Source: Pyrinomonadaceae bacterium
GTDB lineage: Bacteria; Acidobacteriota; Blastocatellia; Pyrinomonadales; Pyrinomonadaceae
Direction of reading: 5' to 3'
Length of the DNA: 64,000 bases
Assembly (NCBI GenBank): GCA_021228405.1
Contig: JAJQRF010000009.1
Location: forward strand, 62,001-126,000
Shown here: positions 15,182 through 42,454 of the stretch, one piece after another
Position numbering within the stretch: position 1 is the stretch's first letter
Layout: every line of letters begins with the position of its first letter
Program-made: the position numbers and the translations under genes
Notes under the pieces: generated by a model
What the model was told of the DNA's origin: nothing
The model's input: only the letters and a program-made list of their open reading frames with translations
Databases searched by the model: none

Positions 15182-15357
15182 ACGGTTAGGTGTGTAAAAT
15201 TGGACACTTAAATGCCTAAACTTATACACTTATGTATCCAAATTTACACACCCAAATGCCTAAACTTGCACATTCAAGTGCCTACATTTACACATCTAAA
15301 TGGTTAAGTTTAGACACTTAACCATCCAAACTTACACACTTAAGTGTATAAGTTTTA
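15182..15357. repeat. Intergenic array A: eight 22-nt units, convergent gap
   Basis: Units begin at 15182, 15204 and then every 22 nt to 15336. A typical unit is ACACTTAAATGCCTAAACTT plus two bases. Each can also be read as two 11-nt halves. The last contains the perfect dyad ACACTTAAGTGT. It fills the gap between two converging genes. No spacer-repeat alternation of the CRISPR kind is present. Confidence 0.85.
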
Positions 15358-15377
15358 GTTATTCGATAAGAAAATAG

Positions 15378-15983
15378 CTATTTCAGTTTCTGTCTGAGTT
15401 CGTATGGCAGATAAGTTCGCGTGACGTAATCGGTCGATTTGTAGTCGAGATGGCAGGCTTGGCAGGTTTCGAGCTTGCCTTTGGCGGAAATTTCGGTCGC
15501 TTCGCCGTTAACGGTCATAAATTCCCAATCGCCGACTTTTTTATTAAAACCTTTTTCGCGTTTTATCATCACGGTCAGAAGTTCCGGCGTTTTGCTTTCA
15601 GCCGCCGTGAGTTTTTCCTTGACGATAACCGTTCCGACAGGAAACTTCGGATTCTTTTTCGTAAGCATTTCATTCTTGCCTGCTTCATTTACATAAACCT
15701 CGATATATTTGTCGGAATGCGGGTTTAATTCTTCTCTTTCGATTATTTCTCTGCTCGGTGTCGCACACATTATCGCTACTCTGGAAATCATTAACGCGGG
15801 TTTATCATTTACTTTCGTCCAATTTTTATAGCCTGAAATTTCCGCAATTTCCTCGATTTTTTTCCCAGGCGTTGCGGCAGGAGCCGCCGTCTGCATTTCG
15901 GTTTTTTGCGTAAACAAAAAGCCGACCAAACTCATCATCAAGATAACCGCTATAATTGCGGCTTTGAAAAAGTTCGTTTTCAT
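15378..15983 (-). CDS. Cytochrome P460 family protein
   Basis: This 201-residue secreted protein has an N-terminal membrane anchor or signal (about 7-25) and a P460 fold ending in CQACHLDYKSTDYV, whose CxxCH binds haem c. In P460 proteins a Lys cross-link tunes the haem. These proteins oxidise hydroxylamine or act as periplasmic redox or NO-linked cytochromes; which applies here is unclear. The gene stands alone. Confidence 0.85.
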   Translation of the reverse strand: MKTNFFKAAIIAVILMMSLVGFLFTQKTEMQTAAPAATPGKKIEEIAEISGYKNWTKVNDKPALMISRVAIMCATPSREIIEREELNPHSDKYIEVYVNEAGKNEMLTKKNPKFPVGTVIVKEKLTAAESKTPELLTVMIKREKGFNKKVGDWEFMTVNGEATEISAKGKLETCQACHLDYKSTDYVTRTYLPYELRQKLK

Positions 15984-16018
15984 AAAAATTTTCTCCCTGC
16001 CGGAAAGATGCGCTGAAA

Positions 16019-16468
16019 TTATTGTTTGTTGCTTTCGCCCAACTGTTTTGTTTCGTCTTCGCTTTCGTCGAACAGGCGGCTGACGGGCGTATGGGTCGGC
16101 GGCAGTTCGGATTGTTCCTGCAATTGAGCTCTCTGAATTCTTTCGACGGCTTCGCGGGCGCGGTCGAAATCGTCGCGGCGGATTTTCAGGCTTAATTTAC
16201 CGTCTTTGTTCGGAAGCTGACTGAGTTGGGTAAAACTTTTCAGGCGGATTTCGATCTTTGCGCCGATTTTGATAAAGCCTTTGCGGAATTTGATGTCGAG
16301 AATGTCGGCGACTGGAATCCGCGCTTCCTGAACGCCGTTTTTGATGAGTCCGAAAAGTTTCGATTCAAACTCCAAAACGATTCCGGCGGACGAAAATTTG
16401 CCCATTCCGTCGATCTGCGACAGACCGCTTTCCGCTTTGAACGGGACGCTGATGAAACCTGTTTGCAT
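16019..16468 (-). CDS. Hypothetical PH-like/GRAM-type protein
   Basis: The 149-residue protein has beta-rich features (GIVLEFESKLFGLIKNGVQEARIPVADILDIKFRKG) that resemble a bacterial PH/GRAM fold, then a charged helix and a polar, low-complexity tail. It has no signal peptide. I do not know the family or role. Short dispersed repeats separate it from the TPR gene. Confidence 0.6.
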   Translation of the reverse strand: MQTGFISVPFKAESGLSQIDGMGKFSSAGIVLEFESKLFGLIKNGVQEARIPVADILDIKFRKGFIKIGAKIEIRLKSFTQLSQLPNKDGKLSLKIRRDDFDRAREAVERIQRAQLQEQSELPPTHTPVSRLFDESEDETKQLGESNKQ

Positions 16469-16477
16469 AAATATTTG

Positions 16478-16548
16478 TCAGTCGTTAGTTGTTCGTGGTT
16501 CGTTGCAAATATACAGAAACAACGAACTACGAACGACTAACGATGAAC
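16478..16548. repeat. Short inverted repeat of GTTCGT words
   Basis: GTCAGTCGTTAGTTGTTCGTGGTTCGTTG-like words are mirrored on the right by CAACGAACTACGAACGACTAACG. The sequence can form a long imperfect hairpin between two co-directional genes. Confidence 0.6.
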
Positions 16549-16552
16549 CAAA

Positions 16553-17128
16553 TTAGAAATGATTCGACGGATTGAGAATCTCCAATTTTTTCTTACAGCG
16601 TTCGATGCCTTCCTTGTATTTATCGAGCTTTCCGCCGTCGAGCGTGATGAGCGCGGCTTTTTGGTAATAGTCCATCGCCTGGCTCAGATTGCCCTGCATT
16701 TCATACATTATCGCGTATTCGTTGGCGATCGTGTCCTTGGCAATGCCCGGAATCTGCGAAACGCGGTCGAGATGCGCTTTCAGATCATCGAAACGTCCGA
16801 GATTCGACAGAAAATAACTGTAATTCAGATAAGCGGCGTTGTAATGCGGCGCATACCGGATCGCGGCTTGGTAATATTCTTCGGCGCGCGCGGAGTTTTT
16901 ATACTTCGTTTCGTAAACCCAGCCGAGATGATTATAGGCTTTGCCGAATTTAGGATTGCGCTTGAGAATCTGCGACAGTTTTTCAACCGCTTCCATAATT
17001 ATGCCATCGTTCAAAAGCCGGTCGGCTTGCGCGAAAAGCTCTTCGCATTCGAGCTCGGCGCGGTCGGGAAGCAGATTATTAACCGGATTTTGGTTACTGA
17101 AATCGTTTTGTCCATTAGAAAATTCCAT
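16553..17128 (-). CDS. TPR-repeat protein
   Basis: The 191-residue protein has at least three tetratricopeptide repeats, visible as AEKLSQILKRNPKFGKAYNHLGWVY, AEEYYQAAIRYAPHYNAAYLNYS-type and AMDYYQKAALITLD-type helical pairs. There is no signal peptide or membrane helix. It should act as a protein-protein scaffold in the cytoplasm; the partner is unknown. Confidence 0.8.
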   Translation of the reverse strand: MEFSNGQNDFSNQNPVNNLLPDRAELECEELFAQADRLLNDGIIMEAVEKLSQILKRNPKFGKAYNHLGWVYETKYKNSARAEEYYQAAIRYAPHYNAAYLNYSYFLSNLGRFDDLKAHLDRVSQIPGIAKDTIANEYAIMYEMQGNLSQAMDYYQKAALITLDGGKLDKYKEGIERCKKKLEILNPSNHF

Positions 17129-17185
17129 AATGTTTTTACTCCATAAATTAAAATTTTCAGCCCTTGCGGACGCGCGGGCTTTTGC

Positions 17186-17707
17186 TTATTTCTTCAAATC
17201 TTCGGCACGTGTTTCACTGCCGTCCTCCAACTCTTTTTCGATCTTTTTCGCTTCTTTTTCCTTGATGCTGATAAAATTAAAAGCCGTCAGCGCAAACGCG
17301 ACGAGCGCGATCGCCGCCCCGTAATACAGCGTGTCAACGGCATTTTCGTATTTCAGAATCTTCTGCACGAACTTGACCGCCATCACGGGAATAATCACGA
17401 ATGTAAACTTTGCTTTGAGTTCCGTCAAATCCTTAACGAGCATCCAGTCGGGAACTTCGAGTCCGCTGATGAAAAGTTCGTAAAGACTGACCGCCACCAC
17501 GATCAACGCCGTCGCCACGAGAAAACAGTCCAACGCTTCAAACAAAACATAAAGCGAGGGTTCGGATTCGTGATAATTGCCGATGACGGTCTTTATCAAT
17601 TCAAAAGTTTTGACCGCACCGAGAAAAAGCGCGGCAATCGCGCCCGTCAGCATCCCGAGCACGCTCACGATCGGCAAATATCTCGATCTTTCAATAAGCC
17701 ATTTCAT
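17186..17707 (-). CDS. YqhA / UPF0114 family membrane protein
   Basis: A 173-residue protein with four predicted membrane helices and the family signature around ELFISGLEVPDWMLVKDLTELKAKF (about 85-110). The function of the family is not known. It starts only 15 nt after the NhaA stop codon, so the two are probably co-transcribed, and it may work alongside ion homeostasis. A highly charged C-terminal tail (KEKEAKKIEKEL) follows the last helix. Confidence 0.85.
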   Translation of the reverse strand: MKWLIERSRYLPIVSVLGMLTGAIAALFLGAVKTFELIKTVIGNYHESEPSLYVLFEALDCFLVATALIVVAVSLYELFISGLEVPDWMLVKDLTELKAKFTFVIIPVMAVKFVQKILKYENAVDTLYYGAAIALVAFALTAFNFISIKEKEAKKIEKELEDGSETRAEDLKK

Positions 17708-17722
17708 ATAAATTGTGAATCC

Positions 17723-18931
17723 TTAAACTTCCGTCATATCAAAATCCATTGTTTCCATATCGTCGTCGCTTTCGTTCGGTGCACCGAGAAGCTTGAGCCA
17801 GAGAAAACCGATCGTTCCGGCGGTTAAAGACGCAAGCAGAATCGCCATTTTCGAGCCGTTGATTTCGACCACGTTGCCGGCAAACGCCAGATTCGTGATA
17901 AAGATCGACATCGTAAAACCGATTCCGCCCAAAATTCCCGCGCCGAAAATATGTTTCCAGTTCAGGTCGAGCGGCAATTTGCAGATGCCGACCGAAACCG
18001 CGATAAAACTCAAAAGCGTAATGCCGAGCGGTTTGCCGATGACCAAACCGCTCATAATGCCGATCTCGTTAGAATGCGTCAGTGTTTTCAGCGATTCCGA
18101 ATCGATCACGATTCCCGTATTTGCGAGCGCAAAGATCGGCAAAATTATAAATGCGACGGGTTTGTGCAGAAAATGTTCCATCTTGTAGGAAAGCGATTCC
18201 TCGTCGTCTTCCTTCGCCGAAAAGGGAATCGCAAAACCGAGCAAAACGCCCGCAATCGTCGCGTGAACGCCCGATTTCAGCATCAGAAACCACATCAAAA
18301 TGCCGCCGAGAAGATACGGAACGAGCTTATTTACTTTTGCTTTGCTCAGTAAAACCAGGATTCCGAAAACGATGATCGCGCCGAAAAGGTAAGCGGTCGA
18401 GAGCTTTGCCGTGTAAAAAACGGCGATCACGATAATTGCGCCGAGATCGTCCATCACGGCAAGCGCGGTCAGAAAGATTTTTAACGAAGCGGGCACGCGG
18501 CTTCCCAAGAGCGCGAGAACGCCGAGCGCAAAAGCGATGTCGGTCGCCATCGGAATCCCGATTCCGGGTTGCGTCGGGGTTCCTTGATTTAAAGCGAAAT
18601 GAATACTTGCAGGCAGAGCGATTCCGCCGATCGCCGCAAAGATCGGGAGAAGTGCGGTTTTAAAGTTGGACAATTCGCCGTTGTATAATTCGCGTTTTAA
18701 TTCGAGTCCGATCAGCAAAAAGAAGATCGCCATCAGCGCGTCGTTGACCCACAATTCAAGGCTCAAACCGCCGATGCCCAAATGCCAGAATGTCAGATAT
18801 TGCTTGCCGATCGGCGAATTTGTAATCAAAAGCGAAATGACCGTGCAGACGATCAGTAAAATACCGCCCGCTTTTTCCGATTCAAAAAAAGCATTAAACG
18901 ATTTCGATAATTTTCTTCTTACAATACCCAT
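17723..18931 (-). CDS. nhaA: Na+/H+ antiporter NhaA
   Basis: The 402-residue inner-membrane antiporter expels Na+ (or Li+) in exchange for protons. The signature residues are present: TDIAFALG (Asp of the ion path) and ALAVMDDLGAI with the paired Asp of the ion site. The N-terminus FFESEKAGGILL matches the family. It is the first gene of a unit with the YqhA protein. Length is normal. Confidence 0.94.
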   Translation of the reverse strand: MGIVRRKLSKSFNAFFESEKAGGILLIVCTVISLLITNSPIGKQYLTFWHLGIGGLSLELWVNDALMAIFFLLIGLELKRELYNGELSNFKTALLPIFAAIGGIALPASIHFALNQGTPTQPGIGIPMATDIAFALGVLALLGSRVPASLKIFLTALAVMDDLGAIIVIAVFYTAKLSTAYLFGAIIVFGILVLLSKAKVNKLVPYLLGGILMWFLMLKSGVHATIAGVLLGFAIPFSAKEDDEESLSYKMEHFLHKPVAFIILPIFALANTGIVIDSESLKTLTHSNEIGIMSGLVIGKPLGITLLSFIAVSVGICKLPLDLNWKHIFGAGILGGIGFTMSIFITNLAFAGNVVEINGSKMAILLASLTAGTIGFLWLKLLGAPNESDDDMETMDFDMTEV

Positions 18932-19015
18932 ATTCGTTAATTTGCGGAAAATAAAAAGGAAAAACTATTATTTTGCAATGAATTGCCTTAATTTTAGCAG
19001 AATTGCGGCAAACGG

Positions 19016-19061
19016 AAAAAAGGCAAAAGCCGAGAATTGTTTTCTCCTGCTTTTGCCTTTT
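19016..19061 (-). terminator. Intrinsic terminator after the tldE-type gene
   Basis: A 12-bp stem with GGCAAAAGC/GCTTTTGCC surrounds an 18-nt loop, with TTTTTT on the minus strand. It lies about 20 nt past the stop codon. Confidence 0.8.
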
Positions 19062-19081
19062 GGTTTTTGGTTTTTATTTTT

Positions 19082-20431
19082 CTATTCGCCGCCGACCGTC
19101 ATCTCGGAGATCAAAAGCGTCGGTGATGCGGTGCTTCCGCGTTTGAAACTGAGATCGTTGCCGATCGCCTGCACGTTTTTCAAAACATTCAGAACGTTTC
19201 CGGCAATCGTAATTTCCTGAACCGGATAAGTCATCTCGCCGTTTTCGATCCAATAACCGCTCGCGCCCTGCGAAAAATCGCCCGTCACCGAATTTACGCC
19301 CGAACCGAACATTTCCGTCAGATACAAACCGTTTTTGACGGATTTGATAATGTCCTGCGGAGCGGTTTTACCATTTTTCAGGAAAAGATTGGTCGGGGAA
19401 ACGCCCGGCGCGGATTGATAACTGCGTCCCGCATTTCCCGTAACTTTCGCGTTCAAACGTCTTGCCGAGTAAGCATCGCAAACGTAGATTTTCAAGATGC
19501 CGTTTTCGATGACCGTCACGGCGGAAGAACGCACGCCTTCCGCATCGAACGGACGCGAAGCCAGACCGTCTTCGATGGTTGCGTCGTCAATGATCGTGAT
19601 CGTCGGGGCGACGATTTGCTGTCCGACCTTATCGACCAGATAAGACGAACGGCGGTATATGCTTCCGCCCGAAGCCGCGCCGAAAATCATATCGACAAAA
19701 TCGCCCGCGACACTCGGATCGAGCACGACGGGAACAGCTTGCGATCTGACCTTTTTACCGCCGATTCGGTGAACAACGCGCCGCGCCGCTTCCTCACCGA
19801 TGGATTTCGGTGAATCGAGTTTGTTGAAAAAGCGGTTGAAGGAATACCAGCGGTCGGTATATTTTACGCCGTTTTCTTCCGCCAAAAGCCCGACCGACAT
19901 ACTTGCATTCGTGGTTTTGTATTGCCCGATAAAGCCGTCAGAATTAGCCAGCGTGACCTGCCCGACCGAATTAGACCAGCCCGCGCCGTTTGAATTCGTG
20001 ATCCGTTTGTCGAATGCGCGTCCGGCATCTTCCATTTCCTTGACCATTTCGATCTTTCTTTCGGGCGTGATCTTTTCGATAGAATCGTCGAAAAGCATTA
20101 ATTTTCCCGTGTATTCGCCCAAAAGTTCCTTCGCGGCAAGCCCGTTAAACTTATCGGCGTTGGAAACTTTCACGATTTCGAGCGTTTCCTTGACGAGCTG
20201 TTGAACGGTTTTATTCTGAAAATCGGTCGTAAACGTTGAAGCCGTCGCACCGTTTTTGAAAACCCGCAAACCCAACCCTTTCGAGGTCGATTGCTGTAAT
20301 TTTTCGATGTTTCCGAGCCGAATTGTCGTGTTGAATCCGTTCGACGAAACAATATAAACATCGGCGGCATCCGCGCCTTCCTTCTTCAAAGCCGAAACGA
20401 GTTCGGACGCTAAATTTCTGTAATCAGTCAT
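19082..20431 (-). CDS. tldE: TldE/PmbA-type subunit of the TldD-TldE protease
   Basis: The 449-residue protein is the TldE (PmbA) partner of a metalloprotease that cleaves peptides such as modified microcins and helps degrade unfolded chains. It lacks HExxxH, as expected for this subunit. Typical features are AADVYIVSSNGFNTTIRLGNIEKLQQST at the N-terminus and GANSVTGDFSQGASGYWIENGE-like residues near the C-terminus. It follows tldD with an 89-nt gap made of short repeats. It has no signal peptide, unlike the neighbour. Confidence 0.9.
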   Translation of the reverse strand: MTDYRNLASELVSALKKEGADAADVYIVSSNGFNTTIRLGNIEKLQQSTSKGLGLRVFKNGATASTFTTDFQNKTVQQLVKETLEIVKVSNADKFNGLAAKELLGEYTGKLMLFDDSIEKITPERKIEMVKEMEDAGRAFDKRITNSNGAGWSNSVGQVTLANSDGFIGQYKTTNASMSVGLLAEENGVKYTDRWYSFNRFFNKLDSPKSIGEEAARRVVHRIGGKKVRSQAVPVVLDPSVAGDFVDMIFGAASGGSIYRRSSYLVDKVGQQIVAPTITIIDDATIEDGLASRPFDAEGVRSSAVTVIENGILKIYVCDAYSARRLNAKVTGNAGRSYQSAPGVSPTNLFLKNGKTAPQDIIKSVKNGLYLTEMFGSGVNSVTGDFSQGASGYWIENGEMTYPVQEITIAGNVLNVLKNVQAIGNDLSFKRGSTASPTLLISEMTVGGE

Positions 20432-20515
20432 ATCAATTTCGGATTGGTGATTTCGGATTTCGGATTGAAATTAAAAAATCCCAAATCCGAATTCCCAAAG
20501 CCCAAATCGTCCGCC
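20432..20515. repeat. GATTTCGGATT-type short repeat tract between tldD and tldE
   Basis: Direct and inverted copies of words such as GATTTCGGATT and AATCCGAA. The same words occur at 32236-32277 and inside coding sequences at about 12220, 45640 and 62310. Confidence 0.6.
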
Positions 20516-20520
20516 TCCTT

Positions 20521-22065: not shown

Positions 22066-22230
22066 CGATTGAACTCCCTATAAAAATGTTATTTCAGAAT
22101 GAAAAATCAGTCCGTAGCATTTACGCGAATTTTTGGAACTAAACGTATCAATAATTAAAACACCGTCCGAAATAATTTTATGACAGGTTTTTGGGAATGG
22201 CAGAAAAGAGAAGTTAAACTCAAAAAGTTT

Positions 22231-22312
22231 GCCCGCGAAATACACGAGAAGGACGAAAAAAGAATTATAGATTTTTCTGTTTTATTTCGTTTCTTTCGTG
22301 TGTTTCGCAGGC
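22231..22312. repeat. Dispersed inverted repeat, family 1
   Basis: GCCCGCGAAATACACGAGAA on the left is mirrored by TTCTTTCGTGTGTTTCGCAGGC on the right. It lies next to the stop codon of the following minus-strand gene. Confidence 0.75.
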
Positions 22313-22319
22313 AAAAAAA

Positions 22320-22574: not shown

Positions 22575-22579
22575 AAAAT

Positions 22580-24103: not shown

Positions 24104-24313
24104 AAAACCTACGTTTAGGTATTTAAAACCTAATGTTAGGTGAAGAAAACCTAAGTCTAGGTATTTAAAACCTAGGTCTAGGTTTAAAGAACCTAAGTCT
24201 AGGTATTTAAAACCTAAGTGTAGGTTTAAAGAACCTAACATTAGGTTTTCTTCACCTCAGTTGAGGTATTTAAAACCTAGACCTAGGTTTTAAATACCTC
24301 AACTGAGGTTTTC
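24104..24313. repeat. Intergenic array B: ten 21-nt units with conserved dyads, divergent gap
   Basis: Units start every 21 nt from 24104 to 24293. Eight contain ACCTA-N4-TAGGT and two contain ACCTC-N4-GAGGT, so both arms change together. The last three units also form a perfect 27-bp inverted repeat (24254-24280 with 24283-24309) around a 2-nt centre. It lies between the divergently read BNR and murI genes. Confidence 0.9.
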
Positions 24314-24431: not shown

Positions 24432-25313
24432 GTGGAAAATTCTAACGAACAAAACCCCTTAAATAATCAAACAAAAGCAAGTCTGCCGATCGGGATTTTC
24501 GATTCGGGCGTAGGCGGTTTGACGGTTTACCGTGCGCTTCATAACCGCTTGCCGAACGAGCATTTTATTTATCTCGGCGACACGGCGCGGGTGCCTTACG
24601 GCACGAAATCGTTGGCAACGGTCGAACGTTACGCGATCGAAAATGCGGAGTTTCTCGCCTCGCACGGCATAAAGATTCTTGTCGTGGCGTGCAACACGGC
24701 TTCCGCGCTCGCTTTGCCGAAGATTCGTGAAAAGATCGGCATCGATGTTGTCGGCGTGATCGGTCCGGGCGCACGCAAAGCGGTGGCAATGACGCGGGAC
24801 AGGCAAAATGAAACGAATCAAAAAATCGCCGTCATCGCGACCGAAGCAACCGTTTCGAGCAATGCTTACGCGCTTTCGATTCATCAGGCGGAAGAAACAG
24901 CGGTCGTTTATCAAACGGCTTGCCCGCTGTTCGTGCCGCTCGCGGAAGAAAATTGGACGAAAGAGCCGGAAACCGTTTCGATCGCTAAAAAATATCTCGA
25001 AAAGATCAAAGAATTTCAGCCCGACGCGCTCGTTCTGGGATGCACGCATTACCCGATTCTGCGCGAAGTCATTCAGCAGACGGTCGGCGAAAATGTTACA
25101 CTCATTGATTCGGGCGAGGCTTGCGCCGAAGAAGTCGAACAACTTTTGGACTTCAAAGAATTGAAAAATCCGCAGAAAATCGAAGGCGAGCGCACACTCT
25201 GCGACGATCTCGATCATTTTTACGTGACCGACGCGGCGGAAAGATTTGCGCGTGTCGCCGAAAGATTTCTGGGCAGTCAGCCCGCCAAACTCGAAGCCAT
25301 CGAACTTTATTAA
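24432..25313 (+). CDS. murI: Glutamate racemase
   Basis: The 293-residue enzyme makes D-glutamate for peptidoglycan from L-glutamate. The conserved GIFDSGVGGLTV, ACNTASALAL (first catalytic Cys) and GCTHYPILR (second Cys) are present. The start is a GTG, since no ATG lies upstream of the GIFDSG core in frame; no Shine-Dalgarno is visible. It is 33 nt upstream of rph, so a shared transcript is likely. Confidence 0.95.
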   Translation: MENSNEQNPLNNQTKASLPIGIFDSGVGGLTVYRALHNRLPNEHFIYLGDTARVPYGTKSLATVERYAIENAEFLASHGIKILVVACNTASALALPKIREKIGIDVVGVIGPGARKAVAMTRDRQNETNQKIAVIATEATVSSNAYALSIHQAEETAVVYQTACPLFVPLAEENWTKEPETVSIAKKYLEKIKEFQPDALVLGCTHYPILREVIQQTVGENVTLIDSGEACAEEVEQLLDFKELKNPQKIEGERTLCDDLDHFYVTDAAERFARVAERFLGSQPAKLEAIELY

Positions 25314-26334: not shown

Positions 26335-26446
26335 TAAGAAAATGGGACGCGGACGAACGCGGATCAGGCAGATTTACACGGATAAATTATAAAAATATCT
26401 GTGAAAACCCGCTAAATCTGTGTTCGTCCGTGTTCTATTTTCCTTA
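26335..26446. repeat. Inverted repeat, GGACGAAC type
   Basis: AAAATGGGACGCGGACGAACGCGGAT on the left is mirrored by GTTCGTCCGTGTTCTATTTT on the right, with AGATTT words inside. It overlaps the last codons of the endolysin gene. Confidence 0.6.
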
Positions 26447-27499
26447 GTTATAATCTCCGGCTTGCGCCATTGCTTTCGCGTCGTTCAGATAGCCGTTGTA
26501 GGCGTTTTGGATTGCCTCGAACGAACGCGCATTTTGTCCCGCGTATGCGCCGTTTCCGTCGGCTTTCGGCAAACTTGCCCATTCGTTCGCACCGCGATTG
26601 ATTGCCGTTTGCAGATCGCCGTTCAAAAGCGGTTCGATCATATTCCTTTCCTTCATCAACTGCACCGCCGCGATGTCCTGCGTGTCGGCGTGAAAATTGG
26701 TCAAACCGAGATTTTTCGCCAGATTATTCCACGTTCCCGACAAAAATTGATAACGTCCGGCGGCGGAAGAAACGAGATTTTTGTTGACCTGCACCTTCAC
26801 GTTCGGATGCTGTGACATATCGTAGGTCGTCACGTTTTTCGCGCCCGCCGCGAGTGTCGTGTCGTATCCCATCGATTTTTTATTCTGTCCGATGACCGTG
26901 CCGTTGACGACTTTGCCGTAATTCAAACCCGTTCCTTCGGTGAATCCGATGGTGTCGAGCATGGCGCGGATTTCGGGTTTACGCGCCAGATCAGCCAATT
27001 CTTTTTGTTTCGCGGCAAAAGCGGCTTGCGTTTTCGCCGTTTCGTAAGCCTTCGTGACTTCTTCCTTGACGGTTTTCGCCACTTCTTCGGCTTTTGCCAT
27101 TATTTCTTTGGCTTTTTCCTTAACTTTATCGGTCAGCGATTGTTCCTGAACTTTCTCGGTCTTGACCGTTTCGGCTTTCGTTTTTTCGGCTTTTGTCTGT
27201 TCAACCTTCGCTTGTTCGGTTTTCGCCGTTTCCGCTTTTACGTCGGCGGGCGCGGAATCCATTTTCGCGTTCAAATCCGCTTTTTGCTGCGGTTCGCGGT
27301 CGATTCCGGTTTTCGCGTTTGCGCCGTCGGTATTGTTTGCCTTTGCCGTTTCGTTCGATTTCGTTTCGTTTCCGACCGAACAACTTTTATTTGAATCCGC
27401 CGAGCTTTTTCCCGCCGCGCCCGCCGCGCCGCTTGCGCCGACCGAATTACTGTTGCCGCCGCCGTTCGTGCTTCCGCCGACTCCGCCTGTACTTGCCAT
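26444..27499 (-). CDS. Lambda-endolysin-type (GH104) lytic domain with long low-complexity N-terminus
   Basis: The 351-residue protein has a Gly/Ser/Ala-rich N-terminus, a Lys/Glu/Thr-rich repetitive middle (KTEQAKVEQTKAEKTKAE) and a C-terminal domain (about 195-350) like phage lambda R lytic transglycosylase. Marks are MLDTIGFTEGTG with the catalytic Glu, SAAGRYQFLSGTW, ERNMIEPLLNGD and NEWASLP. It should cleave peptidoglycan glycan strands. There is no signal peptide or phage neighbourhood, so release may need lysis or another secretion route. It is followed upstream by array C. Confidence 0.8.
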   Translation of the reverse strand: MASTGGVGGSTNGGGNSNSVGASGAAGAAGKSSADSNKSCSVGNETKSNETAKANNTDGANAKTGIDREPQQKADLNAKMDSAPADVKAETAKTEQAKVEQTKAEKTKAETVKTEKVQEQSLTDKVKEKAKEIMAKAEEVAKTVKEEVTKAYETAKTQAAFAAKQKELADLARKPEIRAMLDTIGFTEGTGLNYGKVVNGTVIGQNKKSMGYDTTLAAGAKNVTTYDMSQHPNVKVQVNKNLVSSAAGRYQFLSGTWNNLAKNLGLTNFHADTQDIAAVQLMKERNMIEPLLNGDLQTAINRGANEWASLPKADGNGAYAGQNARSFEAIQNAYNGYLNDAKAMAQAGDYN

Positions 27500-27565: not shown

Positions 27566-27910
27566 AGAAAAGTTCTCCGAATGATTCGGAGAGCTCTTCC
27601 GACCATTCGGAGAGTGCAGAAATTGATTCGGAGAGTTTTTCCGACCACTCGGAGAACGCAGAAATTGATTCGGAGAGCGCAACTGCCCTTCGGGAGAACT
27701 TTTCTATCGATTCGGAGAGTTCTTCCGCACATCGGGAGAACGCATCCGCACATCGGGAGAACGCATCCGACGATTGGGAGAGTTCTTCCGCACATCGGGA
27801 GAGTTCTTCCGTGCGTCGGGAGAGTGCAACCGCCCTTCGGGAGAACGCAGAAAATGAACGGGAGAGTTCTCCCGTTCGTTCGGAGAACTCTCCCAATCGT
27901 TCGGAGAAGA
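27566..27910. repeat. Intergenic array C: about sixteen 21-nt units, co-directional gap
   Basis: GGAGA-containing units recur at 21-nt steps (for example 27588, 27609, 27630, 27651, 27672, 27693). Typical unit: CGGGAGAACGCATCCGCACAT. TTCTTCCG and CGGGAGAA form imperfect dyads across units. Because 21 is a multiple of three, several frames stay open and give false repetitive proteins. Confidence 0.88.
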
Positions 27911-27938
27911 TTATTTTCGGTTTGTGGGATGCTTCCGT

Positions 27939-29432: not shown

Positions 29433-29521
29433 AGAGCAAATAATAGTTTAATTGCTCTAATTCTTTCAAATAGATAGAATGTAGCTTAAATTTATGAGTG
29501 AATTTTAAGGATATTTTTACA

Positions 29522-30139
29522 ATGGGATTAGCACAAAAAAAGCCGCAGTTTTTTACGCCTGAAGAATATCTCGAATTCGAACGAAATTCGGAGATTCGTC
29601 ACGAATATTTCGACGGCGAAATTTATCCTTTCGATGAAAAAGTTTACGCAATGGCTGGCGAAAGTCTTTCGCACAGTCAGATTTGTATAAATTTGGCAGG
29701 TGAAATTCGCACAAAATTAAAGGGTAAAGATTGTCAGGCACTTTCGCCGAATATGAAAGTTCGTGCGGAAGGCAAAGGAATGTTTGCTTATCCAGATTTG
29801 ACCGTTGTGTGCGGTCAGCCGCTTTTTCACGATTCGCAAAAAGACGTTTTGCTTAATCCGAAAATTATTTTCGAGGTTCTTTCTCCTTCGACCGAGCGTT
29901 ACGATCAGACGAAAAAATTCTTTCGCTATCGAAAAGAATTACCGACCCTGACCGATTACGTTTTGATTTATCAAGACGCACCGTTTATCGAACACCACGA
30001 AAAACAATCCGACGGACGCTGGATTCACAACGCCGTTGAAGGAATCGAAGGCTTTTTGGAATTAAATTCGATCGAAATCGAACTAGGTTTGATTGAAATT
30101 TATGATCGGGTTGTTTTCAATGCCGATTCCGAACAGTAA
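29522..30139 (+). CDS. Uma2 family (PD-(D/E)xK-type) protein
   Basis: This 205-residue protein has the Uma2/DUF820 pattern: FTPEEYLEFERNSEIRHEYFDGEIY at the N-terminus, SPNMKVRAEGKGMFAYPDLTVV and IIFEVLSPSTERYD. The Asp and Glu resemble the nuclease core of the restriction-endonuclease-like fold. Function in the family is poorly known. The ATG 24 nt after a GTG is chosen because AAGGA lies upstream. It is the first of two adjacent Uma2 genes. Confidence 0.85.
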   Translation: MGLAQKKPQFFTPEEYLEFERNSEIRHEYFDGEIYPFDEKVYAMAGESLSHSQICINLAGEIRTKLKGKDCQALSPNMKVRAEGKGMFAYPDLTVVCGQPLFHDSQKDVLLNPKIIFEVLSPSTERYDQTKKFFRYRKELPTLTDYVLIYQDAPFIEHHEKQSDGRWIHNAVEGIEGFLELNSIEIELGLIEIYDRVVFNADSEQ

Positions 30140-30203
30140 TTGATAAAAATTAAATCAAAGTAAATTTTCAAGCTGTGTTAAAATGACGGCAAAGAGAGTT
30201 TTT

Positions 30204-30842
30204 ATGGCAGCAGTTTTAACCGAACCGAAAACCCAAATCCAAATCGAAGAACACGTAATCTTGAGCGGCGTTTCGTGGAAAACCTACGAATCTCTGATGC
30301 AGGAACACGAAGACCGCAGCGTGCCTCGGTTTACATATAATCGCGGATGTTTGGAGATTTATATGCCTTCGCAGAAACATGAAGAAAAAGCGGTATTTTT
30401 AGAAAAAATCGTTGAAATCTTTGCAGAAGAAAACGATTTGGAAGTAAGAAATATTCGTTCGACGACGTTCAAAAAAGACGAATTGGAAAAAGGTGCGGAG
30501 CCGGACGGCTGTTTTTATCTGCAAAGCTACGACAAAGTTTTCGGAATGCAAAAGATCGATCTCGAACAATTTCCGCCCGATCTCGTGCTTGAAATCGATA
30601 TTTTCAGTCCTTCGATCGACCGTTTGCCGATCTATGCCGCGTTCAAAATTCCCGAAATCTGGCGTTTTCAAAAGGACGAAGTAAAAATTTACGTTTTCGA
30701 CGGCGAAAAATATAACGAAGCGGCGGAAAGCCTTTCGTTTCCAAAAGCGACGAGCGAAAAACTGACGAATTTGTTAGCCGAAAGCGAAACGGAAAAGCGT
30801 TCGGCGTGGCTGAAAAAAGTGCGCGAAGCGGCGCAGAATTAA
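30204..30842 (+). CDS. Uma2 family (PD-(D/E)xK-type) protein, second copy
   Basis: A 212-residue relative of the gene 64 nt upstream but clearly diverged. SWKTYESLMQEHEDR, FTYNRGCLEIYMPSQKHE, AEPDGCFYL and PDLVLEIDIFSPSID carry the expected Asp/Glu residues. The ATG after AGAGAG (at MAAVLTEP) is preferred. Uma2 genes often come in groups; whether they act as nucleases here is unknown. Confidence 0.85.
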   Translation: MAAVLTEPKTQIQIEEHVILSGVSWKTYESLMQEHEDRSVPRFTYNRGCLEIYMPSQKHEEKAVFLEKIVEIFAEENDLEVRNIRSTTFKKDELEKGAEPDGCFYLQSYDKVFGMQKIDLEQFPPDLVLEIDIFSPSIDRLPIYAAFKIPEIWRFQKDEVKIYVFDGEKYNEAAESLSFPKATSEKLTNLLAESETEKRSAWLKKVREAAQN

Positions 30843-32235: not shown

Positions 32236-32277
32236 ATTAAGCAATCCGAAATCCGAAATCTAAAATCCGAAATTGAA
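32236..32277. repeat. AATCCGAAATC-type short direct repeats upstream of the rhomboid gene
   Basis: Three tandem versions of AATCCGAAATC/TAAAATCCGAAATT end just before the start codon. It is the same word family as at 20432-20515. Confidence 0.6.
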
Positions 32278-33700: not shown

Positions 33701-33745
33701 GGTTTCAAATGCGGTGTTTTGGATTGCGAAACCTCAATCTGAAGT

Positions 33746-34039
33746 CACTGAAGCCCTTTCCCTAAGCACTGAATCTTCAATCCGAAGTCCTGAAACCTCT
33801 TCGCCAAGCACTGAATGTTGAATCTGAAGCACTGAAACCTTAGCTGTAAGAACTGAATCTCCGTCTGCAAGCACTGAAAGTCTTTCTATCACCACTGAAA
33901 CCTCGGCTGTCAGCACTGAATGTTGATGTGTAAGCACTGAATGCTCGGCTATCAGCACTGAATGCTCGGCTGTCAGCACTGAATGTTCAGCTGTCAGGAT
34001 TGAATGCTCGGGTGTCAGCACTGAAACCTTAGCTGTCAC
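33746..34039. repeat. Intergenic array D: fourteen 21-nt units, convergent gap
   Basis: CACTGAA (or close variants) starts at 33746, 33767 and every 21 nt to 34019 without a single indel. A common unit is CACTGAATGCTCGGCTGTCAG, in which TCAG-CA-CTGA forms a dyad across the unit joint. The array keeps a false 101-codon frame open on the minus strand. Confidence 0.9.
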
Positions 34040-34061
34040 TCTCGTAAGTTTTCTCGAATGC

Positions 34062-34127
34062 GTTCAGAGTTCAAACTTCAGTTTGAATCTTGTAAGTAAA
34101 ACTCAAACTGAAGTTTAAACTCTGAAC
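34062..34127. repeat. 25-bp inverted repeat beginning GTTCAGAGTT
   Basis: The left arm 34062-34086 and right arm 34103-34127 match at 24 of 25 positions around a 16-nt loop. The ends resemble family 2 repeats (GTTCAGAGT...ACTCTGAAC). Confidence 0.75.
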
Positions 34128-34212
34128 AAATTGACTGCGAAATGTAACGGATAATTACGAAAATGATTTTCTTATTAATTTTCGCTTCTTTCGTTTATTT
34201 CGCAGTCAATTT
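34128..34212. repeat. Dispersed inverted repeat, family 1-like
   Basis: AAATTGACTGCGAAATGTAACG is mirrored by CGTTTATTTCGCAGTCAATTT. It directly follows the 25-bp inverted repeat and ends near the stop codon of the next gene. Confidence 0.65.
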
Positions 34213-35372: not shown

Positions 35373-35542
35373 CTTAATCTCCGTTCGATTTTTTTAGAAT
35401 AGCTTTTGGGGACAAGATTAAAATAGCACAGTTTCGGGAAACAATTAATTTATAAATATAGATTTCTGGCAAAGAAAAGTTATTGAAAAATGACTTTTTC
35501 AATAACTGACAATTGATAACTGATAACTGTTTTTTGTAGAAA

Positions 35543-36031: not shown

Positions 36032-36040
36032 AAAGTTTTT

Positions 36041-36113
36041 GCCACGAACAAACACGAAAATTCACGAATAAAAACAAATTAAATTTTCGTGGACTTTCGT
36101 GTTTGTTCGTGGC
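36041..36113. repeat. Dispersed inverted repeat, family 1
   Basis: GCCACGAACAAACACGAAAA is mirrored by TTTCGTGTTTGTTCGTGGC in a strong hairpin, lying between the def start and the zinc-ribbon gene stop. Confidence 0.75.
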
Positions 36114-36119
36114 TAAATT

Positions 36120-36329
36120 CTATCTTGGAATTACTCCAAAGCGCGAACCGCGCCGGAAATCGCGTTTGGCGTTAAAGCCTTTTTCCTCGCGTTGTGTGCA
36201 TTCCCAGCAGACGACGACGGTTTCGTTGGTCGGCTCGATAAACGTGTTGTAATGTTCCATTTCGCGGTCGCATTTGGCGCATCTGACCGCCGGTTTTTCT
36301 GTTATTTTCGGATCGACTGATTCAATCAT
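36120..36329 (-). CDS. Small zinc-ribbon-like protein
   Basis: A 69-residue protein with CAKC and CWEC pairs 25 residues apart, which could hold one zinc, and a basic C-terminus (KRDFRRGSRFGVIPR). No named family recognised. Its start overlaps the stop of the GT39 gene by 4 nt (ATGA), so it is coupled to that gene. Confidence 0.7.
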   Translation of the reverse strand: MIESVDPKITEKPAVRCAKCDREMEHYNTFIEPTNETVVVCWECTQREEKGFNAKRDFRRGSRFGVIPR

Positions 36330-37831: not shown

Positions 37832-37839
37832 TTTCGCGG

Positions 37840-38670
37840 CTATTTCTTTTGATACAAAGCCCAGAATAAATCTTCGCTCGGGTAGGGAAAATTTAAATTG
37901 CCGGGAATCAGTTTCAGGAGAAAATTATCGCCCAAACGATATTTTAGCAACGATTTGGCGTGTGCGCCCGAAATCTTTTTCGACGGGCGACCGCGTGCGA
38001 TCTTTGCAAAACCGAGTGTTTCCAAAAAATCCGTCAAGCCTTTTTCCGAGAAAAACTGCAAAACCGAAGGCGGCGAATATTCGTGCCAGTTTCTGCCGAA
38101 AATCCGCGCTGAAAGTGACTCGCGATTCCAGGTTTCGATCAGTAAAAAACCGTTTTCGTTCAGCAAATCAAACGCTTTTTCAAACGCTTTGCGCGGTTCG
38201 TAAAAATGCGCGGCGACCTGGATCATCGAAATGAGATCGAATTTCTCGTTCGTTTCAAACTCTTCGAGCGAACCTTGTTTTATGTCTAAATTCAATTTTT
38301 CGCGCCCGAATCCTGCCATTTCCGCATTCGGTTCAAGCCCGGTTCCGTTCCAATTTTCGTTAACAAAACCTTTCAGCAAAAATCCAGCCGCCGCGCCGAC
38401 ATCGAGCATTTTTCCTTTTTTCCCGGAATACTTTTCCAAAATTTTCGCATACATCCGTCCGCGCTTTGTGAGCATTTCACCTTCCTGCAAATAGTCCGAA
38501 TAGCCTGCGCCGCCGCCGGAAAAATATTCATCGCCGTAAACTTCGGCAACGTGCGTTTCATCCGCCGAAATCGCCGTAAAACGATGCGAACATTTCACGC
38601 AATCGTGCAAGTCGAACCCTTTCGCCGCAAAAGCGAATTTCGATTCTGAATTACAAAGCGGACAAACCAT
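37840..38670 (-). CDS. SAM-dependent methyltransferase with N-terminal zinc ribbon
   Basis: A 276-residue protein. CPLC and CVKC form a zinc ribbon at the N-terminus. A class I methyltransferase follows, with MLDVGAAAGFLLKGF (SAM loop), GLEPNAEM and LISMIQVAAHFYEP. Such enzymes often methylate sugars in surface polysaccharide clusters. The ATG at MVCPLC is preferred to a TTG one codon upstream. It lies 9 nt before the GT39 gene. Confidence 0.83.
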   Translation of the reverse strand: MVCPLCNSESKFAFAAKGFDLHDCVKCSHRFTAISADETHVAEVYGDEYFSGGGAGYSDYLQEGEMLTKRGRMYAKILEKYSGKKGKMLDVGAAAGFLLKGFVNENWNGTGLEPNAEMAGFGREKLNLDIKQGSLEEFETNEKFDLISMIQVAAHFYEPRKAFEKAFDLLNENGFLLIETWNRESLSARIFGRNWHEYSPPSVLQFFSEKGLTDFLETLGFAKIARGRPSKKISGAHAKSLLKYRLGDNFLLKLIPGNLNFPYPSEDLFWALYQKK

Positions 38671-38720
38671 CAATTAAAAGTTAAAAATTAAAAGTTAAAA
38701 AAGTCATTTTCAAGAAGACT

Positions 38721-39071
38721 TTATGATTTTTTAGAGGAAACTATTATTGCTCCGATGATTTTCTTTATTTCTTCTGATTCTTTCAATAAATCAATGAGTT
38801 TTTCTTTTGGTAGAATTTCGCTTGCTTCTAAAAGCCGTAACCAATAGTTAGTTTCTCTGGCTTCTTTCAGCGCGATTGACATTTTATGAATGAAATCCGA
38901 ACGGCTTTGACCTGCTTGTGCTTCCTCCACATTTGCGCCGATCGAAGTTCCTGAACGTAACAATTGTTTTGCCAAAATGTTGTTTTCTAACGAATAAGTC
39001 TTACTCAAAAACTGACAAAGTTTAATTATCCTCAAAGCAAAATCAAACGACCTTTTGTTTATATCGCTCAT
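38721..39071 (-). CDS. Four-helix-bundle (23S rRNA intervening sequence type) protein
   Basis: This 116-residue protein matches the IVP/four-helix family: FDFALRIIKLCQFL, QLLRSGTSIGANVEEAQAGQS, DFIHKMSIALKEARETNYWLRLL. First seen as ORFs in 23S rRNA inserts, it is also widespread elsewhere with unknown function. Its ATG overlaps the stop of the deacetylase gene (ATGATG), with GGAG upstream. A/T-rich TTAAAAATT words flank it on both sides. Confidence 0.88.
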   Translation of the reverse strand: MSDINKRSFDFALRIIKLCQFLSKTYSLENNILAKQLLRSGTSIGANVEEAQAGQSRSDFIHKMSIALKEARETNYWLRLLEASEILPKEKLIDLLKESEEIKKIIGAIIVSSKKS

Positions 39072-40036
39072 CATAAATCTCCGATTTTTTTAATTTTTAA
39101 CTTTGAATTTTTAATTGAATAGCGGGCGTGTGCGCGGACGTTTTGCAATTCGTAATATTTCTGAAAGTCTGCCAAGAATCCGCTGATGAGTTCCATTTTC
39201 TTTTCTGCCGCGAGATTCATTGCGGGAAAAAATTTAAGTTCTTCGGCATCGTTTCCGTCTAGAAAATCGAGCGGATGAAGCAAAAGCGACGGCGCAATTT
39301 GGTTGAGAACGCAGAATCTTAAAGCCGTTTTGAAATAAATTTTTGCCGCCAGTTCGGAAAAGGTCGCCAGATATAAAAGATAAGAAAAGTGGATCGGCGT
39401 TTTAAATATCGGCAAGGTCGTCACGGGAATTTCCGTCAAAGTCCGTTCGCCGATCTGCCATTTATAAGGTTTTAGCGGCTGAAATCCGTCGGAAAATTTA
39501 CCGAAAAGTTTTTTGCGTTTTTCGCGTTCTTCGTCGGACATTTCGGGCGATTTGAAAAAATAATAGGCACGCGCAAGCGGCGCGATATAGGTCGGTAAGG
39601 TCGAGCAATCGTATTCGTAATTTCTTTCCGCCAAAACTTCCAGAACCGTCGGCGAGAGCGAATAACCCGGACCGCGAAAACCTATCGGCAATTTTCCTGC
39701 CGCTTTTTCGAGCGCGTTTTCCGTCCGCTCAAATTCCGCGATCAATTCATCTTTCGAGTAAAGATGCAGCCAGGGTTCGTGTTTGAAACTGTGATTCCCG
39801 ATCTCGTGGTCTGCCTCGGAAATCTGCCGGATCGCGTCAAAATTTTTCTCCAAAGCCGCGTCTTGCCCGACGATAAAGTAAGTGATTTTCAGATTTCGCT
39901 CTTTCAAAAATGCCAGCGAACGCGGCACGACCGTATCGAGATAAGTCGGAAAACTTTCCCAACCCGCATCGCCGTGCGTTTTCATATACGACCATTTATT
40001 GTCGAGGTCTAAAGATAAACTTGCTATCGGTTTCAT
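39071..40036 (-). CDS. Polysaccharide deacetylase
   Basis: The 321-residue protein has the NodB-like fold: SLDLDNKW (Asp pair), HSFKHEP (metal His pair), FRGPGYS and LHPLDFLD (late His). All catalytic motifs look intact. It probably removes acetyl groups from an envelope sugar. It has no signal peptide. The last 12 residues (YSIKNSKLKIKK) are encoded by an AATTAAAAATT-type repeat, so the tail may be an added sequence. The ATG at MKPIASL is preferred. Confidence 0.87.
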   Translation of the reverse strand: MKPIASLSLDLDNKWSYMKTHGDAGWESFPTYLDTVVPRSLAFLKERNLKITYFIVGQDAALEKNFDAIRQISEADHEIGNHSFKHEPWLHLYSKDELIAEFERTENALEKAAGKLPIGFRGPGYSLSPTVLEVLAERNYEYDCSTLPTYIAPLARAYYFFKSPEMSDEEREKRKKLFGKFSDGFQPLKPYKWQIGERTLTEIPVTTLPIFKTPIHFSYLLYLATFSELAAKIYFKTALRFCVLNQIAPSLLLHPLDFLDGNDAEELKFFPAMNLAAEKKMELISGFLADFQKYYELQNVRAHARYSIKNSKLKIKKIGDL

Positions 40037-40045
40037 AATTTTTTT

Positions 40046-40130
40046 GCCCACGAAATACACGAAAAATACGAAAAAGAAGAACCTTTTAATCTTTTGTATT
40101 TATTTCGTTTCTTTCGTGTGTTTCGTGGGC
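40046..40130. repeat. Dispersed inverted repeat, family 1, overlapping a gene end
   Basis: GCCCACGAAATACACGAAAA is mirrored by TTTCTTTCGTGTGTTTCGTGGGC. The right part encodes the last nine residues (PTKHTKETK) of the FAD enzyme. Confidence 0.8.
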
Positions 40131-41443
40131 AGATATTCTTCAAAAAATCTTTCAGCTAATTGAATCGTTTCGTTGACGTTCAAAGTTCCGTTCGTGATCT
40201 GCGCCGAATTGACTATGTAAACTCCATCGATAGAAGTTTTCACGTTCGGCAGATTTTCGGAATAATTCAGCGTCGGAATCGGAAAAACGTTTCTGACGCG
40301 CGAGATTTTGAAGACTGAAACATCTTTTCTGTCAAAATGAGGATACATTTTTTCGAGCGCGGAAAGAAATATTTCTTCGATCTCCGCGTCGGTTTTTTCA
40401 AAAAGTTCATCGTCGGGCGCGACGTATTTCGGCAGGTAAACGAGCGCGTTTCCGCCGAATTCCTTTTTATCGACGAGCGCACTCATTTCGATGATTCCCG
40501 TAAAAGGCGTTTCGTCGGTGATGTTTGTGACGTAGAAATCTGAAAGCGGATTTTTCATCAGAACGGATGCACAGACGATGCCTTGATATTTGATGTTTAC
40601 GAGTTTTCGCTTTTCGTTTTCAGTTAATTGCGGACAGATTTTCGCGGCAGCATTTGCAGGGCAAGTGAGGATAACTTTGTCATAGTCCTGAGTCCTGGGT
40701 CCTGAGTTTTGAGTCTGATATTCCAAAATTACCTTTGCATCTTTGCGGCTTTGCGGCTTTGCGTTAAAAACCGCCGAATTTAACCGGATTTCAACGCCTT
40801 TTTCCTTCAGATGTTCGCCGAATCTTTTCAAAATCCGTGCATAGCCGCCGCGCACGTAGCCGAACAATTCCTTTTTCAAACCCGAATTTCGCGCCGCATA
40901 CATTCTTTGGATCGTCGCCCAGATAAATGCGGCGGACGTTTCTTTGTAGGCTTCGCCGAGCTTGGCTTGAAGAAGCGGTTTCCACATTTTTTCAAATGTC
41001 TTTTTGCCCGAAAGTTTCGTGAGCCAATCTTCGACCGGGATTTTTTCAAGCGATTTCCAATCCTCGACGCGCGAAGCGTAAAAGATAGTGCCGCCGAGCC
41101 GGAATTTTGAAATCAGATCGAGTGGCGGAAACCGCAAAAATTCGAGTGTGTTCGACATCGAAACCAATTTTCCGTCCGTATAAAATCCCGTTTTCGTTTC
41201 GACCCATTCAAAATCGTCTTTTAATCCGATCTCTCCGACGATCCTGCGCGTAAAACTGTCTGAAAGCAATGTGACGTGATAATGCTTATCCCACACGACA
41301 TCGCCGATCTTCCACGCGCTTGCCAAGCCGCCGATCTCGTCGGCAGATTCAAAGACCGTCACACGATTTCCTTGTTCGGCTAATCTTAAAGCAAGCGTTA
41401 AGCCGAGAAATCCGCTTCCGATGATGGCGATTTTTTGAAACAT
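40100..41443 (-). CDS. FAD-dependent amine-oxidase-like oxidoreductase
   Basis: A 447-residue protein with the GxGxxG FAD loop (IIGSGFLGLTLALRLAEQG, then VFESADEIGGLAS) and a late INTSIDGVY-like FAD segment (VKTSIDGVYIVNSAQ). The family covers protoporphyrinogen-oxidase-like and UDP-galactopyranose-mutase-like proteins often found in polysaccharide clusters. Two stretches (QTQNSGPRTQD and NAKPQSRKDAK, coded by 40682-40770) come from short repeats. The C-terminal PTKHTKETK comes from a family 1 repeat. The reaction is unknown. Confidence 0.78.
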   Translation of the reverse strand: MFQKIAIIGSGFLGLTLALRLAEQGNRVTVFESADEIGGLASAWKIGDVVWDKHYHVTLLSDSFTRRIVGEIGLKDDFEWVETKTGFYTDGKLVSMSNTLEFLRFPPLDLISKFRLGGTIFYASRVEDWKSLEKIPVEDWLTKLSGKKTFEKMWKPLLQAKLGEAYKETSAAFIWATIQRMYAARNSGLKKELFGYVRGGYARILKRFGEHLKEKGVEIRLNSAVFNAKPQSRKDAKVILEYQTQNSGPRTQDYDKVILTCPANAAAKICPQLTENEKRKLVNIKYQGIVCASVLMKNPLSDFYVTNITDETPFTGIIEMSALVDKKEFGGNALVYLPKYVAPDDELFEKTDAEIEEIFLSALEKMYPHFDRKDVSVFKISRVRNVFPIPTLNYSENLPNVKTSIDGVYIVNSAQITNGTLNVNETIQLAERFFEEYLPTKHTKETK

Positions 41444-41464
41444 TTTAGGATTTATCTAAAAGAA

Positions 41465-41526
41465 GGCACGAAGCTTACACGAAGAAAAATCAACTATTTT
41501 CGTGTGTTTTCGGATTGCCTCGTGGA
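41465..41526. repeat. Short dispersed inverted repeat, family 1-like
   Basis: GGCACGAAGCTTACACGAA is mirrored by TTTTCGTGTGTTTTCGGATTGCCTCGTGG. It lies just ahead of the FAD gene start. Confidence 0.6.
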
Positions 41527-42153
41527 TTATAATTCTTTGACATTGAGGTTTTCAATTTCATACTTCAAACCGCAAACGCATTGTTTTTCGCTTTGCTCAA
41601 CGGGCGAGGATAAACCGCCGCCCCTGCTGTTGTCGAACTTATGAAAAAGCTGTCCGCATTTGCAGACCGCGCCGATTGAACGTGCGGGCGAACCTAAGAC
41701 GAGATGAAAGTCGGGAACTGAACGCGTCACGACCGAACCCATTCCGACCATTGCCCAACGTCCGATCGTCAGATCGTTGCCGATGATACATCCCGCGCCG
41801 ATGGTCGCGCCTTCACGAACTAATGTTTTTAATGTATGTTCGTCAGGCTCGCTCGGACGCAGGGTTTTGAGGTCGGGAAACGTTGCGCGGGGAAATCTGT
41901 CGTTCGTAAACGTCGTTGAAGCGGAAATCATCACGCCGTCTTCGATGGTTACTTCGGCGCAGATGTAAACCATCGCGTTGATCTTCACGCGGTTGCCGAT
42001 CTTTACGTCGTATGCGATGTAAGTTTTTTCGCCGATAATGCACTCTTCGCCGATCTGCGCGCCGTGCCGGATGTGAACATTGTCCCAGACGCTCGTTCCT
42101 TCGCCGATGCGGACGTTTTCCTCGATGATCGCGGTCGGATGAATTTTAGTCAT
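41527..42153 (-). CDS. Left-handed beta-helix sugar N-acetyltransferase (WbpD/WlbB type)
   Basis: The 208-residue protein has regular hexapeptide repeats (IEENVRIGEG..VWDNVHIRHGAQIGEECIIGE) and matches WbpD/WlbB enzymes, which acetylate the 3-amino group of UDP-2-acetamido-3-amino sugars. FTNDRFPRA and GSPARSIGAVCKCG are typical. A C-terminal CxC...CxC may bind zinc. It is in the same cluster as Gfo/Idh, DegT and wecB, which supports amino-sugar synthesis. The substrate is inferred. Confidence 0.85.
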   Translation of the reverse strand: MTKIHPTAIIEENVRIGEGTSVWDNVHIRHGAQIGEECIIGEKTYIAYDVKIGNRVKINAMVYICAEVTIEDGVMISASTTFTNDRFPRATFPDLKTLRPSEPDEHTLKTLVREGATIGAGCIIGNDLTIGRWAMVGMGSVVTRSVPDFHLVLGSPARSIGAVCKCGQLFHKFDNSRGGGLSSPVEQSEKQCVCGLKYEIENLNVKEL

Positions 42154-42172
42154 AAGAATTTTCCGTTTTAAT

Positions 42173-42241
42173 GTTTAGAATTCCGCCTTGAGGCGGCTTT
42201 TCGCTAAACGACAGCCTTCTAAAGAAGGGACTCCAAACGCG
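42173..42241. repeat. Dispersed inverted repeat, family 2
   Basis: GTTTAGAATTCCGCC, GCGGCTTTTCGCTAAACG and GGGACTCCAAACG follow the same layout as the copy at 14542-14608. It lies directly next to array E. Confidence 0.65.
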
Positions 42242-42244
42242 TTC

Positions 42245-42454
42245 AGAAGTTCTATTTGCCCGGATATATCTTCTAACCGAATAAATAGAAGTTCTATTTG
42301 TTCAGATATATCTTCTATCTCGCCGTTTAGAAGATATACCTCGCCATTTAGAAGTTCTATCTCGCCGTTTAGAAGTTCTATCCGCTCGGTTAGAAGATAT
42401 ATCTCGCCGTTTAGAAGAACTATTTTCGGATTTCAAAGATATATTTTGCGAGTT
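42245..42454. repeat. Intergenic array E: ten 21-nt units inside the polysaccharide cluster
   Basis: Units begin at 42245 and every 21 nt to 42434. Typical unit: AGAAGTTCTATCTCGCCGTTT, with AGAAGATATATCTCGCCGTTT as a second form. AGAA-G-TTCT and GATATATC are short dyads. It lies between the acetyltransferase and the dehydrogenase genes, both on the minus strand. Confidence 0.9.

Follow-up and report, generated by a model that had tools for sequence, protein, structure and literature searches.

Bacterial tandem arrays are usually viewed as slippage products with arbitrary periods, and bacterial minisatellites (VNTR) are known as intergenic tandem repeats with diverged units and broad period spectra. 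Tandem protein sites of about 20-22 bp, i.e., two DNA turns, which are read cooperatively, are found in plasmid iterons and in ParR/parC-type centromere arrays; these occur once per replicon, beside a Rep or Par gene. Cro/CI-type control regions consist of two to three dyad operators about two turns apart, located in promoters, where small HTH dimers bind cooperatively and control their own gene. REP/BIME and the REPINs with their RAYT are short palindromic intergenic repeats, sometimes forming ordered tandem clusters (PMC3116915). Heptamer tandem repeats (STRR) are also intergenic, displaying one preferred period with many sequences, and are both widespread and unexplained (SPADE survey, PMC6344855). 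The ranges used for CRISPR in that survey are repeats of 23-55 bp and unique spacers of 25-60 bp (PMC6344855).

In this work, we analysed a stretch of 64,000 nucleotides (hereafter, the window) as part of 1.597 Mb studied from a genome of 5.72 Mb in 20 contigs, which belongs to the family Pyrinomonadaceae; among named genome records, its closest murI relatives are also Pyrinomonadaceae (Acidobacteriota). A sequence-only reading of the window had reported five intergenic tandem arrays with periods of 21/22 nt; all were located at the claimed places and in the claimed gene contexts, with A and D in convergent gaps, B in a divergent gap, and C and E in co-directional ones:

Array A, 15182..15361, unstranded: about 8 units of 22 bp, lag 44 being stronger, with a core like AAACTTACACACTTAA; convergent gap
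Array B, 24104..24312, unstranded: 10 units of 21 bp; divergent gap, upstream of murI
murI (glutamate racemase), 24432..25313, plus strand: adjoins array B; anchor for the same site in relatives
Array C, 27566..27914, unstranded: 16 units of 21 bp, core GGAGAGTTCT(T/C)CC; flanked by two minus-strand genes
Array D, 33734..34040, unstranded: 14-15 units of 21 bp, with a AAGCACTGAA core and an 11-bp variable part; convergent gap
Array E, 42243..42450, unstranded: 10 units of 21 bp, core TAGAAGTTCTA and linker TCTCGCCGTT; flanked by two minus-strand genes

All five arrays were recovered both by TRF and by direct reading of the sequence, and a scan of the whole window returned the same five, plus coding repeats. 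Self-match at their own period was 0.59-0.69, far above the Markov shuffles, in which the best lag from 5 to 60 reached at most 0.44 (500 first-order shuffles for each array). The double lag (42, or 44 in A) was stronger than the single one (21, or 22 in A) in five out of five arrays, indicating that their units alternate two by two. The window also carries two neighbouring Uma2 genes (putative restriction endonuclease fold) at 29498-30842.

Arrays A-E are a sample of a genome-wide class. An array was defined by a self-match of at least 60% within 100 bp, at a lag anywhere between 5 and 100. By this test, the 1.6 Mb contained 84 intergenic arrays and Markov-resampled sequence none; the term intergenic is approximate here, as genes were called by a simple hexamer model, which missed, for example, the minus-strand gene at 26444-27499 beside array C. 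Periods of 19-22 or 41/42 were displayed by 66 of the 84, about one array per 24 kb, namely 45 of period 21, 11 of period 20, two of period 19, one of period 22, and seven of period 41 or 42; the remainder comprised 13 of period 7 and five others. Furthermore, the pooled intergenic autocorrelation presented peaks at 21, 42, 63, 84, 105 and 126. The period shared by the window arrays is thus a general property of the class, and no broad spread of periods was seen. Extrapolation from the density in 1.6 Mb gives about 230 arrays (200-odd) in the 5.7 Mb of the genome, a number that may in fact be higher since arrays with indels are under-detected. After refinement, 69 arrays remained, 64 of them intergenic, and the median length over all 69 was 270 bp; the typical array comprises 12-13 units over about 270 bp, and unit lengths were distributed as 607 of 21 bp, 108 of 20 bp and 14 of 22 bp. 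The exact register cannot serve as evidence of constraint, because the detection pipeline itself selects for register. Likewise, we rejected the rarity of indels (23, compared to 3014 mismatches) as proof of constrained spacing, given that heptamer arrays show an equal ratio and that, in simulations, the pipeline dropped indel-bearing arrays.

Several other repeats were observed in the DNA studied. Heptamer arrays, a class apart from the 21-bp arrays and present in relatives too, occur in the window at 20436-20508, 32243-32273, 35502-35529 and 45638-45723 (ATTTCGG, AATCCGA, GATTTTG, CGTAATT and others). REPIN-like dispersed palindromes with the core GCCGCCTGAAGGCGGGACTCTGAAC are found in the window at 42184-42240 and 14500-14560, and at many places in C4 and C19 of G000, in many cases paired in inverted orientation at a distance of about 50 bp; the 24 exact GGGACTCTGAAC copies in 1.6 Mb were all intergenic (24/24), and some of the nine Y1/RAYT genes may have this family as their partner. 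Beside array D, at 34045-34131 of the window, stands another dispersed palindrome, TTCAGAGTTCAAACT...AGTTTGAACTCTGAA; of eight exact TTCAGAGTTCAA copies, five are found no more than 150 bp from a 21-bp array. Two further repeats are a 26-bp GC-rich array (GGAAAGGGCTTTGCCCGCTGATATGC) at L016:13629-13888, abutting a 21-bp array, and a 66-nt repeat present 14 times at L023:3506-4446, probably within a minus-strand leucine-rich-repeat gene.

The arrays constitute a lineage-specific class, the pattern being missing from the sampled relatives, all of which belong to other genera (29 relatives were listed). By the same test, the murI surroundings of 80 genomes of many phyla, 1.23 Mb in total, contained no array of period 19-23, and a single weak, GC-rich case appeared in about 0.95 Mb from 16 family members and a further 60 kb from one class member; heptamer arrays were present in many of these family genomes. 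At the site of array B, the murI loci of 23 relatives, all of other genera, carried no such array, and array B itself had no match among phages or plasmids. The lag-21 excess was weak elsewhere (0.003-0.020, compared to 0.039 in this genome), had no harmonics at 42 or 63, and was accompanied by other multiples of three, probably representing coding sequence left uncalled. No description of such arrays was found in full-text literature of incomplete coverage, which is weak evidence of novelty.

Each unit consists of a conserved part and about 7 bp that vary freely. The conserved columns are clustered: their autocorrelation has z 9.4 at shift 1, turns negative at 5-7 bp (z about -4) and is neutral again at 9-10; this spatial test was preferred over core-versus-linker rate heterogeneity (40 of 60 arrays), which presumes unrelated units. 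A short dyad, proposed earlier as common to the five window arrays, is significant in A (p<0.005), in B, whose unit is an ACCTA-N4-TAGGT dyad with a 7-bp linker present in either orientation, and in C and E, but not in D (p 0.16); genome-wide, 36 of the 64 arrays display a dyad-symmetric unit (p<=0.05) and around 40% have none, hence the dyad is not universal. Where present, it consists of two conserved half-sites about one turn apart, together with the variable linker, and conservation peaks 2-7 bp out from the dyad centre and is lower at the centre itself, as in a dimer operator. No covariation between arms was detected over 35 dyad arrays, either in Watson-Crick pairs (2948 observed, 2959 in shuffles) or in complementary double changes (115 in both), thus disfavouring hairpins or base pairing and fitting independent recognition of the half-sites. 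No motif is common to all arrays, A-runs and TGAAA being the only enriched ones. Inside the 21-bp units, there was no 7-bp similarity and no excess at shifts 7 or 14; a derivation from heptamers was rejected on this basis, and almost every exact lag-21 repeat lying outside arrays is a heptamer run.

Regarding genomic placement, arrays occupy 20 of 145 convergent gaps (13.8%), 9 of 167 divergent gaps (5.4%) and 33 of 674 co-directional gaps (4.9%), a preference for convergent gaps over all others with p 0.0003. For the most part, the genes flanking arrays show no relationship to one another, and only two families recur, beside seven arrays:

HTH_26 family (Cro/CI-type, 115 aa), L217:4808-5155, L076:18678-19025 and L250:1018-1371 (C19:44808-45155, C4:38678-39025 and C4:901018-901371, respectively): an array upstream of each
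Helical family (about 220 aa), L077:3949-4611, L253:1369-2001, L215:16803-17471, L217:5577-6251 and L233:11199-11870: an array upstream in five of six members

In the HTH_26 family, an array is located directly upstream of all three members within the DNA studied, starting at most about 216 bp away; the enrichment beside arrays has p 0.001 uncorrected, and is modest once corrected for the number of families tested. Close paralogues number eight in this genome and one in the relative G013, with two weak matches in one other of the 29 relatives, and no members were found in viral contigs. Upstream of the HTH gene at C4:901018, the array units resemble AACAG-NN-CTGTT, which would be plausible as an HTH operator. 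The array upstream of the HTH gene at C19:44808-45155 has a related array at C10:5976-6206. In the helical family, the directly upstream arrays have periods of 20 or 21 bp, the paralogues have diverged widely, sharing 24-29% identity with the first member, and members also occur in 9 of the 29 relatives. The protein model is confident and all-helical (mean pLDDT 87), with no structural match below E 0.1 in the PDB or among viral models, and the family had no match in plasmids. Genes of both families flank the array at C19:45153-45348, and in G013 they lie about 3 kb apart.

The conserved dyad core, the arms lacking covariation, and the half-site and unit spacings of one and two turns make a row of dimer sites the simplest reading. 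We consider it the best reading, not a proven one and with a little less than an even chance of being right, that the arrays are rows of putative binding sites for DNA-binding proteins, two DNA turns apart. Each array would then be a row of candidate sites for a sequence-specific protein, usually in the form of a dimer whose two half-sites lie one helical turn apart, and adjacent dimers, at two turns, could touch each other and bind cooperatively. Such a lattice might serve regulation, DNA bridging or insulation. For some arrays, candidate binders are the Cro/CI-type HTH_26 proteins whose genes are directly preceded by an array, and autoregulation is hypothesised for these. The main difficulty for this reading is the private sequences: there being no universal core motif, a single protein cannot read every array by sequence, and eight HTH paralogues are too few for about 230 mostly private arrays. 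Moreover, transcription operators are expected at promoters, so the preference for convergent gaps counts against an operator lattice, as do the roughly 40% of arrays showing no dyad and the modest HTH enrichment. Binding on one DNA face, as suggested by the sequence-only reading, is supported insofar as the conservation pattern fits binding, but a strict 20-bp period drifts by about 34 degrees per unit, so that helical phase is lost along the array and a purely one-face version is strained. It is also possible, though rather doubtful, that what is shared is the spacing and not the sequence, i.e., that more than 100 private sequences were each amplified into a two-turn lattice organising the chromosome mainly at convergent gene ends, which would be read by diversified dimeric proteins or by one protein sensing repetition or shape.

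The chief rival to rows of protein sites is neutral amplification with an unusual length preference, in which a lineage-specific quirk of replication or repair duplicates segments of about 21 nt, leaving functionless minisatellites; we hold this to be unlikely, if to be taken seriously. It agrees with the private sequences, the Poisson-like spacing of arrays along contigs, the absence in other genera at the single site examined (array B), the preference for convergent gaps, where insertions are tolerated, and the two-unit duplications seen as lag 42 exceeding lag 21. However, slippage normally generates broad periods and many short arrays, whereas the period is here nearly single-valued and hardly any short arrays of low divergence occur at period 19-21 (three outside known arrays, a count valid for little-diverged ones only). 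In addition, the conserved columns form a core, unlike the outcome of uniform mutation, although part of this pattern could also be produced by related units and by patchy gene conversion.

Most arrays have a private sequence, and some have been copied whole to other loci. The five window arrays had been described as unrelated, which holds for A, C, D and E, each single-copy across the genome, but not for B, which has three copies genome-wide (relatives at C19:32399-32588 and C4:598831-599039 of G000); besides, more than 12 pairs of arrays have sequence in common. In the clearest pairs, unit order is conserved, 20-bp units occur at matching places, the flanks are unrelated and the copies are often inverted. 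The pair a32/a51 displays 86% identity over 161 bp spanning both 20- and 21-bp units, indicating that it was copied and not amplified twice. Such whole-array copies, together with the characteristic length near 270 bp, are what would be expected from non-autonomous mobile elements made of transposase sites and copied whole, an explanation to which we assign a small probability. The 120-bp flanks presented weak k-mers only and no convincing common boundary motif usable as a terminus, and most window arrays are single-copy. Y1/RAYT transposases are equally common in array-free relatives; from the nine Y1 genes, two lie within the DNA studied, one with no array within 10 kb and the other with arrays at least 1.4 kb away. 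A RAYT/REP origin was unsupported, and the REPIN-like family of this genome is separate and has its own sequence.

Hairpin arrays acting as RNA or single-stranded DNA, either as bidirectional terminators or as stabilisers of mRNA 3' ends, would suit the dyads present in about half of the arrays and the enrichment in convergent gaps and at 3' ends; they are nevertheless improbable, as the arms do not covary, numerous arrays either lack a dyad or leave too little room at its centre for a hairpin loop, a shared terminator signature was not observed, and the window had no match to Rfam models. Real or decayed coding repeats can hardly be the explanation: 21 nt equals seven codons, at least one frame is open in 24 of 64 arrays and coding DNA probably yields the weak lag-21 peak of other genomes, but column-permuted controls are open in 15 of 64, arrays of 20 or 22 bp cannot keep frame, and a coding-type signal does not have strong harmonics at 42, 63 and 84.

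With about 80% of intergenic arrays at one period and their sequences differing, either an enzyme measuring about 21 nt or selection on spacing is required; both are testable, and either would be new if true. To our knowledge, few bacterial regulatory elements are known at convergent gene ends, which these arrays favour, and three of them have a candidate binder in the adjoining HTH gene.

Compared with described systems, the arrays have in common with REP/BIME/REPIN the tandem order and the inverted copying, which in REPs reaches opposite sides of the genome (PMC3116915). REPINs form one or few sequence families per genome, with high copy number, hairpin formation and RAYT linkage (PMC3116915); the sequences of the arrays, instead, are many and mostly private, their step is fixed at 20-22 bp and their arms do not covary, and a high-copy shared repeat is absent, none of A-E exceeding the three copies of B. 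Heptamer STRR have period 7 and short, simple units (PMC6344855), unlike the 21-bp units, which lack internal 7-bp similarity, and both coexist in this genome. CRISPR is not matched either, the whole array unit being 21 bp and its variable part about 7 bp. The tandem sites about two turns apart, with a conserved core and a variable linker, resemble those of iteron and partition arrays, but an estimated 230 chromosomal arrays, mostly beside ordinary genes and not beside a cognate one, do not. Minisatellites and VNTR are likewise head-to-tail and intergenic, from which the arrays differ by the concentration of around 80% of this genome's intergenic arrays at one period and by the core and linker structure. 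Resemblance to Cro/CI-type control is restricted to the arrays immediately upstream of HTH_26 genes (3/3); the arrays depart from such regions by their 8-20 units, mostly away from promoters. The specific families (REPIN, heptamers, CRISPR, iterons and Rfam RNAs) each miss one or more of the features tested. The arrays fit no label narrower than the generic one of intergenic tandem repeats, and there is a real chance that they represent something further away.
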